Shown: piece by piece, positions 33,023 through 35,069 of the stretch
Position numbering within the stretch: the first letter of the stretch is position 1
How the letters are laid out: every line of letters starts with the position of its first letter
Assembly: GCA_018268455.1 (NCBI GenBank)
Contig: JAFDWM010000295.1
Span: forward strand, 20,991-84,990
DNA length: 64,000 bases
Direction of reading: 5' to 3'
Origin: Actinomycetota bacterium
GTDB taxonomy: Bacteria; Actinomycetota; Actinomycetes; Actinomycetales; Microbacteriaceae
Program-made: the position numbers and the translations under genes
The notes under the pieces: generated by a model
What the model was told of the DNA's origin: nothing
What the model saw: only the letters and a program-made list of their open reading frames with translations
Databases searched by the model: none

Positions 33023-34930
33023 TCAGCGTTCCAGGGCGTGGGCGACCAGGCGCTGCAGCGTCGTCATCCCGTCGCGCGACAGGATCGACTCCAGGTGCCC
33101 CTGCACCGACGCGAATGCGGGGCCGCGCAGGGCGTACACGTCGCCGGTGTCCGGATCTGCTGACACCTCGGCGACGCCCGCCTCGGTGGTGCCGGGCTCG
33201 ACGGCCGCGGTGAAGGTGTTGTAGAACCCGATCGAGGCGTCCTCGCCGAATACCGGCACCGACTTCTGCAGCCCCTGATGGGGGCTGCGCAGCGGCGCCA
33301 GGGCGATGCCCAGCGAGTCGGCGAGGATCTGATGACTCAGGCACACCGCGAGCAGCGGCTGCCCTGTCTCTCGGCGATGGGCGACGAGGGCGCGCATGCG
33401 GGCGATGCGCGGCGACGAGGCGTCGCGGGGATCGCCGGGTCCCGGCCCCGCCACGAGCAGGTCGGTGGCGTCGATCGTGTGGTCGTCGGCGGCAGACCAG
33501 GGCAGGATCCGCACATCGAGACCGAGGTGGCGCAGCTGGTGCGCGAGCATCGTGGTGAAGCGGTCCTCCGCGTCGACCACGACCGCCGTCCGGCCGGCGA
33601 AGGGCGCGGCGGCGACGGTGTCGGTGCCGGCGTCCTGCGGGTTCATCCAGAACTCCGCGAGTCGCGCGTTGCGGGACGTGAGCAGCTGCTGGATCCGCGG
33701 ATCCTCGGCGGGAGAGGCCCCGGATCCCGGATCGTCGGCGTCCTCGCGCGCCTCGGCGGCGGCGTCGCGCGCGATCGCGCCGATCGCTCCGAGCACTCCG
33801 GCCGCCTTGCCGTGCGTCTCGCCGACCTCACCGGCCGGATCCGAGTGCCGCACCAGGGTCGCGCCGACGGGCACGCTCAGCGCGCCGTCTTTCAGATACA
33901 CGGTGCGGATGAGGATCGGCGCGTCCAGGTCATGTCCGCCCGCGTCGTTCGGGGTGAACAGCGCGGCGACACCCGAGTAGTAGCCGCGGGGCTTGCTCTC
34001 GTGCCGGCGGATCACCGTGCACGCGTTCTGCATCGGGGATCCGGTCACGGTCGGCGCGAACATGGTCTCGCGCAGGATCTCGCGGGGGTCGAGCCGGCTG
34101 CTGCCGCGCAGCATGTACTCGGTGTGCGTGAGGCGCGACATCTGCTTCAGATGGGGGCCGGTGATCCGTCCGCCGTCCGAGCAGACCGCGCTCATCATCT
34201 TGAGTTCCTCGTCGACGACCATGAACAGCTCCTCGGTCTCCTTCGTCGAGGAGAGGAACTCGGTGAGGGCCGCCGTGGTGGATCCGCCGACCGGGTGCCG
34301 GAAGGTGCCCGAGATCGGGTTCATCGTGACGACGCCGCCCTGCGCGACGACGTGCGCCTCCGGACTCGCGCCGACCGCGATGACGCCGGGGGTCACGACG
34401 GCGAAGGTCCAGTACGCACCACGCTCATGCTCGAGCAGTGCGCGGAACCAGGTGAGCGCCGCCGTGCGCTCGGCGTCGGGTGAGGAGGTGTCGATGGTCG
34501 CGGTGTAGTCGCGGCGGATCACGAAGTTCGCGCCCTCGCCGCGGCCGATCTCGTCGGCGATCACGCGCTCGACGATCGCGGCGTAGTCGTCGTCGCTGAG
34601 ATCGAAGCCGCCGTCGTGCAGCGGTATCGGATCCGCTGGAAGCGCCCGGCGGACCTCGTCCGCGGGCAGGTGCAGGTGCTCCTCCACCAGCAGGCAGCGC
34701 AGCGGAGCGCCGTCATCCTGCGCCTCGAAGCCGCGCTCGCGCACCTGGCGGTACGGGACGAGGGCGAAGACCTCGCGCGGCGTGCCGCCCTCGTCCAGCG
34801 GGATGTCGGCGAGGTGCTCCACATCGCGGATCCGCCCGGTGAGAAGCTCGACGGTGTCGGAGCCCTCGCGGGCGAGCAGCACGAAGGAGGTCTCGTCCGC
34901 GAGCGCGCGGATCCGATCGGCAGTGGTCAT
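33023..34930 (-). CDS. PhzE-type fused chorismate-utilising synthase/glutamine amidotransferase
   Basis: A 635-residue fusion. Residues 1-430 are a TrpE/PhzE-like chorismate-binding domain (FVIRRDYTATI, NPISGTFRHPVG, MSRLTHTEYMLRG, ETMFAPTVTGSPMQNAC, PRGYYSGVAALF). The C-terminus is a class I glutamine amidotransferase with nucleophile Cys in AVCLSHQIL and His/Glu in VQGHLESIL. CLSHQ, the FGEDASIGFYNTF segment and domain order resemble PhzE (2-amino-2-deoxyisochorismate synthase) more than separate TrpE plus TrpG. However the leader is a tryptophan attenuator, so an anthranilate-synthase role is equally likely. No other trp or phz gene is adjacent. Confidence 0.82.
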   Translation of the reverse strand: MTTADRIRALADETSFVLLAREGSDTVELLTGRIRDVEHLADIPLDEGGTPREVFALVPYRQVRERGFEAQDDGAPLRCLLVEEHLHLPADEVRRALPADPIPLHDGGFDLSDDDYAAIVERVIADEIGRGEGANFVIRRDYTATIDTSSPDAERTAALTWFRALLEHERGAYWTFAVVTPGVIAVGASPEAHVVAQGGVVTMNPISGTFRHPVGGSTTAALTEFLSSTKETEELFMVVDEELKMMSAVCSDGGRITGPHLKQMSRLTHTEYMLRGSSRLDPREILRETMFAPTVTGSPMQNACTVIRRHESKPRGYYSGVAALFTPNDAGGHDLDAPILIRTVYLKDGALSVPVGATLVRHSDPAGEVGETHGKAAGVLGAIGAIARDAAAEAREDADDPGSGASPAEDPRIQQLLTSRNARLAEFWMNPQDAGTDTVAAAPFAGRTAVVVDAEDRFTTMLAHQLRHLGLDVRILPWSAADDHTIDATDLLVAGPGPGDPRDASSPRIARMRALVAHRRETGQPLLAVCLSHQILADSLGIALAPLRSPHQGLQKSVPVFGEDASIGFYNTFTAAVEPGTTEAGVAEVSADPDTGDVYALRGPAFASVQGHLESILSRDGMTTLQRLVAHALER

Positions 34931-34965
34931 CGAGGAGCTCCTCAGAAGGGGATCCGGCGCGGCGG

Positions 34966-34995
34966 AAACGACAAGACCGCCCCGGAAGGCGGTCT
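34966..34995 (-). terminator. Attenuator terminator of the PhzE-like gene
   Basis: On the minus strand AGACCGCC, loop TTCCGG, GGCGGTCT is followed by TGTCGTTT. The upstream arm can instead pair with AGGCGGT at 35017-35023, which overlaps the stop codon of the leader peptide, forming an antiterminator. That segment can in turn pair with CCGCCT at 35027-35032 inside the leader coding sequence. This is the classic 1:2, 2:3, 3:4 arrangement. Confidence 0.88.
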
Positions 34996-35021
34996 GTTCT
35001 CGAGTACGCGAAAGACACCGC

Positions 35022-35057
35022 CTAGAAGGCGGGCCACCAGGTGGTGTTCGCGGACAT
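35022..35057 (-). CDS. Tryptophan leader peptide (attenuation)
   Basis: An 11-codon reading frame, MSANTTWWPAF followed by TAG, lies 92 bases ahead of the PhzE-like gene. Two adjacent Trp codons sit just before the pairing segments, so ribosome stalling when charged tRNA-Trp is scarce would free segment 2 to form the antiterminator. A -10 box (TAGTTT) ends six bases before its ATG, so the leader mRNA is probably leaderless. Too short for routine gene callers. Confidence 0.88.
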   Translation of the reverse strand: MSANTTWWPAF

Positions 35058-35063
35058 GCGCCG

Positions 35064-35069
35064 AAACTA
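35064..35069 (-). promoter_or_regulatory. -10 box TAGTTT of the attenuated transcript
   Basis: On the minus strand TAGTTT, six bases, then ATG of the leader peptide at 35057. Only about 30 bases separate it from the divergent ispG -10 box. Confidence 0.6.

Follow-up and report, generated by a model that had tools for sequence, protein, structure and literature searches.

The locus considered here raises a question of assignment: does a fused gene whose product resembles PhzE, read behind a tryptophan leader, encode the Trp-regulated anthranilate synthase of the cell, or is it a phenazine- or ADIC-type branch enzyme wired to the charging of tRNA-Trp? Both alternatives had been put forward in a preliminary description of the window (the whole 64,000-nucleotide stretch of DNA analysed). 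The window belongs to Microbacterium; among named relatives, Microbacterium sp. Au-Mic1 comes closest, its best segment being 90 % identical, and this genus accounts for 48 of the 80 named homologous loci kept.

The coding sequence, on the minus strand like all other features described below, occupies positions 33023..34930, its start having been corrected to 34930, and encodes a protein of 635 aa (P0001) annotated from domain and profile searches as a PhzE-like fused anthranilate synthase, TrpEG. Domain searches place a chorismate-binding domain (PF00425, aa 113-375, 33806..34594) and a class-I glutamine amidotransferase domain (PF00117, aa 450-628, 33047..33583, with Cys530, His612 and Glu614) in one PhzE-like chain, as in TrpEG of the S. 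venezuelae type. The same searches detected no Anth_synt_I_N domain (PF04715) in the protein. As had been described, neither a trp nor a phz partner adjoins the gene: upstream lies a divergent ispG, and the ORF that follows downstream is on the opposite strand, its translation having been judged by eye. Among the homologous loci, ispG was found in 56/157, nearly all of them from Microbacterium; it is upstream and divergent, though not in every case adjacent (0.2-3.5 kb away), except in L062, where it lies downstream of the fused gene.

The presence of an attenuator in front of the gene is confirmed. A short leader ORF (35022..35057, ATG at 35057, TAG at 35022) encodes the 11-residue peptide MSANTTWWPAF, as reported earlier, and its two adjacent Trp codons (35034..35039), which would act as the sensor, can be read directly from the sequence. 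A promoter-like -10 hexamer, TAGTTT (35064..35069), with TG one base upstream as in an extended -10 element, ends 6 nt before the leader start. Four segments, namely segment 1 (CCCGCC, 35028..35033), segment 2 (GGCGGT, 35017..35022), segment 3 (AGACCGCC, 34988..34995) and segment 4 (GGCGGTCT, 34974..34981), can pair alternatively as 1:2, 2:3 and 3:4 at positions within 1-2 bases of those first proposed, and the core of the Microbacterium attenuator reads CCGCC-GGCGG-CCGCC-GGCGG. The 3:4 pairing constitutes an intrinsic terminator (34974-34995; nine pairs, six of them G-C, in the terminator scan). The stem thus stands as it had been proposed; the tail behind it (TGTCGTTTCC, 34964..34973, from the sequence and the terminator scan), previously called T-rich, is only modestly so, its U-tract being weak and interrupted. 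No Rfam family matched the window at gathering thresholds.

The RNA folding called for in the preliminary description gave -42.8 kcal/mol for 35057-34965 against a shuffle mean of -30.0 (z -3.68), and the leader folded better than 199 of 200 shuffles, only 1/200 being as good. The antiterminator and the terminator are mutually exclusive and, according to folding and geometry, are placed for a choice between stalling and completion of the leader peptide, the 2:3 helix lacking covariation. RNA polymerase would start at or beside the leader AUG, and a transcript beginning there implies that the ribosome loads on a bare 5' end. When tRNA-Trp is charged, the ribosome would get to the UAG and cover segment 2, upon which the 3:4 terminator would form and the gene would be off. 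With uncharged tRNA-Trp, the ribosome would stall at either UGG and cover segment 1, leaving segment 2 free to pair with segment 3 while segment 4 has yet to be synthesized, so that the gene would be read. When the ribosome footprint is set at +15 from the P site, nascent RNA extending to base 34985 folds into the 2:3 helix with a ribosome at either Trp codon (-15.5/-15.1 kcal/mol); with a ribosome at the leader stop, segment 2 is covered and -2.6 kcal/mol is left. The full-length RNA favours the terminator even when the ribosome is stalled, so that antitermination must be kinetic, as the decision is in classical attenuation.

Support for the individual helices was assessed by pair counts in 42 leaders hand-picked from the 54 listed. 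For the 3:4 helix, 99.7 % of cells are paired and 3/8 pairs show changes on both sides, although this percentage is somewhat flattered because the 12 leaders left out include five (L139, L144, L145, L148 and L153) whose stems are weak or oddly placed according to the simple finder. The 1:2 helix is paired in 91.9 % of cells and contains no pair changed on both sides, and the 2:3 helix in 88.1 %, with one pair changed on both sides, a number within the range given by shuffles. These counts bear on the proposal that the gene does encode an anthranilate synthase but that its leader acts mainly via translation (by coupling or reinitiation) or via Rho, and not through an intrinsic terminator. Reinitiation at actinobacterial leaders has been proposed earlier, according to the account in PMC4833913. 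The interrupted U-tract would also fit such a mode of action, as would the variation among relatives, in which the simple finder detects a terminator stem in 126/130 loci and none in 4/130, and the number of T residues in the 10 bases after the stem ranges from 0 to 8 across the 126 loci. Nevertheless, the near-constant pairing of the terminator helix in the chosen leaders, together with its changes on both sides, speaks for the terminator itself, some 90 nt separate the leader stop from the start of the CDS, and the structural gene has a Shine-Dalgarno-like GAGGAG of its own (34938..34943). A mainly translational or Rho-dependent mode of action is consequently regarded as distinctly unlikely.

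Conservation of the leader was followed across 157 homologous loci, comprising the locus itself, those from the 36 remaining family genomes that carry the gene (37 in total), 40 selected from a scan of the class, where 147/394 genomes had the gene, and 80 named loci; the pairs L108/L176, L048/L166 and L051/L168 are apparently duplicate entries. The absence of leader and hairpins from relatives had been named in advance as an argument against the attenuator. A short ORF with adjacent Trp codons lies upstream of the same gene in 130/157 loci, and the stem accompanies it in 126 of these 130. Short ORFs and hairpins might arise by chance in GC-rich intergenic DNA, and some short ORF with two adjacent Trp codons was indeed encountered in 39/2905 control windows; such an ORF with a promoter at the same spacing, however, occurred in 0/2905, and a leader common to 130 homologous loci makes a chance origin hardly credible. 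A covariance model of the leader, applied to 150 first-pass candidates in each genome (150/6400 in the own genome), scored the leader of the window at 84.4 bits, the only match with E <= 0.01 among the candidates scored there. A strong match precedes the fused gene in 14 of the 15 genomes searched, the exception being G027 (1.4 Mb), and four of the 15 have one extra weak match of 22.9-28.9 bits among the 150 candidates scored per genome.

The position of the promoter-like hexamer is equally constant. TANNNT ends 6-8 nt before the chosen leader start in 130/130 loci (62, 65 and 3 loci), a figure to be read with the fact that the choice of start codon favoured starts with TANNNT upstream; when only the 3'-most start is considered, the hexamer is found at 5-8 nt in 115/130 loci. 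As a background, TANNNT stands at 6 or 7 nt before 8/1650 other starts. A Shine-Dalgarno-like 4-mer precedes the leader start in 4/130 loci and the main CDS in 91/130. On account of this spacing and of the rarity of Shine-Dalgarno-like motifs before the leader, the mRNA probably begins at the start codon of the leader ORF, which would then be translated leaderless. The trpL1 leader of S. lividans is likewise described as transcribed leaderless in PMC8079986.

The leader does not accompany the gene everywhere. Among the 27/157 loci that lack an ORF with adjacent Trp codons, 17 belong to the clade of cluster PhzE proteins discussed below, two (L146 and L152) are cut at a contig end, and two (L059 and L067) have a single Trp codon and are still matched by the covariance model. 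The other six (L070, L113, L114, L116, L186 and L190) have no leader, yet their proteins carry the trp-type Leu at residue 274; in L070, L113, L114 and L116, a TANNNT hexamer is found directly 5' of the main start. These six trp-type or unplaced loci speak against a universal rule. Within the family (n=37), two loci have one Trp codon only (L059 and L067) and one is without a leader (L070). In the last (G027, CDS 7934-6063, minus strand, in a genome of 1.4 Mb), the divergent ispG is kept, canonical TrpE was not detected and the attenuator is gone.

Whether the fused enzyme is the only one of its kind in the cell was addressed by searching the genome from which the window derives. The PF00425 search returned three proteins, namely PabAB (assigned by TIGR00553 over its cut-off), isochorismate synthase (TIGR00543 over its cut-off) and P0001, and neither the chorismate-binding-domain searches nor the TrpE searches detected another TrpE. 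The search for a separate trpE that had been suggested earlier therefore found none, and the slot in the his-trp operon is empty as well. The genes trpB, trpD, trpC and trpA are all present, trpC and trpA lying beside trpB, and the operon reads hisG-PF00977-hisI-Trp_oprn_chp-trpC-trpB-trpA-lgt without trpE. In it, Trp_oprn_chp directly follows the gene that we take, from its sequence, to be hisI. In 5/5 canonical-TrpE loci examined (L037-L040, all from genus g35, and L200, from a Microbacterium), trpE is located between these two genes. No TrpE remnant was recognized in the two stretches of the own genome searched; the assembly consists of 310 contigs, so that a trpE could have been lost in a gap. 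Given the lack of any other detected TrpE, the operon slot that is empty in comparison with five relatives, and a leader that marks the trp-type branch, the first of the two alternatives is supported, and the fused gene is best read as the Trp-regulated anthranilate synthase TrpEG of the cell and not as a phenazine/ADIC enzyme. It is thus held with high confidence that a ribosome-mediated transcription attenuator precedes a monocistronic fused TrpEG, which is very probably the sole anthranilate synthase of this Microbacterium and whose product would be that of such an enzyme. The other two chorismate-binding proteins contain low-complexity sequence: in PabAB (L001 67-2208, C277), repeats (GSDPGVP..., LAAADP...) lie both between the domains and within them, and isochorismate synthase (L002) has a similar low-complexity stretch near its end.

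The opposing view, that the gene encodes a PhzE-type ADIC synthase for phenazine or another secondary metabolite and is regulated by Trp since chorismate is shared, draws on the resemblance of the proteins. The best solved relative of P0001 is by far 3r74 (E 5.7e-154; next best 9.6e-20), which we take to be PhzE of Burkholderia; it has the same domain fusion and overall sequence, and the earlier statement that the product is closer to PhzE than to a normal TrpE holds at the level of sequence. None of the best 25 NCBIfam models listed reaches its cut-off for P0001, and the alphaproteobacterial type of fused TrpE (TIGR01815) was rejected as a candidate, with 136.4 bits against a cut-off of 739.15. 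The positions described in PMC5906492 as differing between PhzE and anthranilate synthase are Ser217, Ser368 and Thr369 of PhzE. With an assumed numbering offset of 2, P0001 has Ser (Ser207), Ala (Ala357) and Thr (Thr358) there, and hence the PhzE residue at two of the three positions said to separate the enzymes; these positions do not decide, because the members L084, L093 and L097 of the PhzE clade also have Ala at the remaining one, that of Ala357. Moreover, likeness to PhzE does not imply a phenazine function, since TrpEG of S. venezuelae, as described in PMC3111181, is also PhzE-like.

Phylogeny and gene content argue against the phenazine reading. A tree had been asked for in the preliminary description, and a quick maximum-likelihood tree with SH-aLRT support only was built from 111 of 158 rows, after most named Microbacterium rows had been thinned out and those that were broken, cut or duplicated had been removed. 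In this tree, which did not contain the S. venezuelae protein, P0001 groups with trp-attenuated proteins and lies outside an 18-row clade (99) formed by all six loci with phzA/B nearby, 11 other loci without a leader, and PhzE 3r74. The PhzE proteins of phenazine clusters thus differ from P0001 in forming a separate clade, in their cluster context and in having no trp leader: none was found in any member of the clade, and the covariance model, run against 36 sources, matched 0/17 cluster-PhzE loci at E <= 0.1. At residue 274, 85/85 leader rows have Leu and 18/18 clade rows Ile, a split that may reflect phylogeny rather than chemistry. Two long branches meet in the cluster clade (L086 with PhzE) and the L070 branch is long, which calls for caution; the state of the leader changes at least 6 times over the 111 rows. 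In a search of 70 chosen genomes with PF03284 (phzA/B), the own genome (G000) gave 0 matches; strong matches near the gene were confined to the cluster-PhzE clade, and weak ones were found elsewhere in G486, G199 and G399. A phenazine enzyme would also leave trpD, trpC, trpB and trpA without any detected anthranilate synthase to feed them. On the combined grounds of the PF03284 search, the tree and the leader model, the phenazine reading, and with it the second of the alternatives first proposed, is rejected for this gene as very unlikely.

The assignment as TrpEG is paralleled by the distribution of the gene. Among 198 Microbacterium genomes, the fused gene was found in 195, the three others being assemblies of 480-650 contigs; only one (L200, G763) had canonical TrpE (E <= 1e-100), together with an attenuated fused gene elsewhere in the same genome. 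In a scan of 299 genomes of the family, 37 had the fused gene and 255 canonical TrpE (NF010086, E <= 1e-120), distributed as fused only in 18, both in 19, canonical only in 236 and neither in 26; the association of the fused gene with the lack of TrpE has a Fisher p of 9e-8, with kinship not corrected. At the thresholds used, the 26 genomes with neither gene are possibly those of Trp auxotrophs, or reflect divergent TrpE or gaps. PF00425 matches number three in every one of the 18 family genomes with the fused gene only (one of the three being weak and partial in G027) and four in every family genome that has both genes (n=19), as also in G763; in G053, which has both genes, the four matches come from three proteins, since one protein is split into two pieces. 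Since 19 family genomes have canonical TrpE too, the fused gene may be a second enzyme there. On the protein tree, which is not a species tree and gives no direction, 34 rows show 5 changes of the fused-only state. No f24 or f34 rows were among the genomes matched by the canonical TrpE search, other TrpE types lying outside that search. There seems to be about an even chance that a PhzE-type fused enzyme under a leaderless trp attenuator replaced TrpE in practically all Microbacterium, as well as separately in other Microbacteriaceae, and thereby placed the first step of Trp synthesis, formerly in the his-trp operon, under tRNA-Trp control, and that cluster PhzE/ADIC synthases may descend from attenuated TrpEG through loss of the leader and of the lyase step.

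Parts of this arrangement are already known from Streptomyces, namely an attenuated PhzE-like TrpEG and a leaderless trp leader. The S. venezuelae trpEG and its trp attenuator were the subject of work by Lin, Paradkar and Vining 1998 and Ashenafi et al. 2008, 2015, and the title of Ashenafi et al. 2008 presents the fused TrpEG as an anthranilate synthase, not an ADIC synthase (both as cited in PMC4833913, PMC5897657 and PMC3111181). As far as these sources describe it, the S. venezuelae system shares with the present one a fused anthranilate synthase highly similar to PhzE and a trp attenuator on the anthranilate synthase gene. The f26 genomes (presumed Streptomyces) differ in that all 39/39 with the fused gene also have canonical TrpE, which is hardly ever the case in Microbacterium, and their leaders are longer than the Microbacterium leader, with three Trp codons in 6/7 of those fetched. 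For trpL1-trpE of S. lividans, PMC8079986 describes a leaderless leader, MFAHSTRNWWWTAHPAAH, a terminator of the Rho-independent type and a monocistronic trpE. The likeness is one of description, not of enzyme alignment, and the Microbacterium leader differs from trpL1 in having two versus three Trp codons, 11 residues and a different sequence. Attenuators predicted in Corynebacterium and Streptomyces by Seliverstov et al. 2005 (PMC1262725) have tandem UGG codons, a competing antiterminator and a GC-rich terminator in common with the present one; their core is given as gGCC-rGCy-GGCC, compared with CCGCC-GGCGG-CCGCC-GGCGG here. Leifsonia xyli was part of that survey, and the account in PMC1262725 does not report a trp attenuator for it. 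Judged by titles, no literature on the fused gene in Microbacterium was found, and what appears to be added here is the genus-wide replacement, or near-complete absence, of canonical TrpE in Microbacterium, as suggested by the genome comparisons.

The fused gene would be the most likely route by which Microbacterium starts tryptophan synthesis, and PhzE-like genes in actinobacterial genomes, taken alone, are no evidence of phenazine production. Loci that differ in the presence of canonical TrpE and of the leader provide a natural comparison set for asking how an anthranilate synthase becomes an ADIC synthase, and the compact, probably leaderless attenuator offers a test case for the sensing of tRNA charging by ribosomes that begin translation directly at an mRNA 5' end. 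Several fused genes in the family deviate from the usual form. There is an in-frame stop in that of L065 (G148), a short C-terminus in that of L069 (G224), and an insertion or long form in that of L076 (G053); because no canonical TrpE was detected in G224, the short form there is either odd or due to an assembly error. In L066 (G001, CDS 7881-6034, minus strand), whose genome keeps canonical TrpE, the amidotransferase His is replaced by Gln (QGQLES), which points to a possible loss of glutaminase activity in this fused protein.
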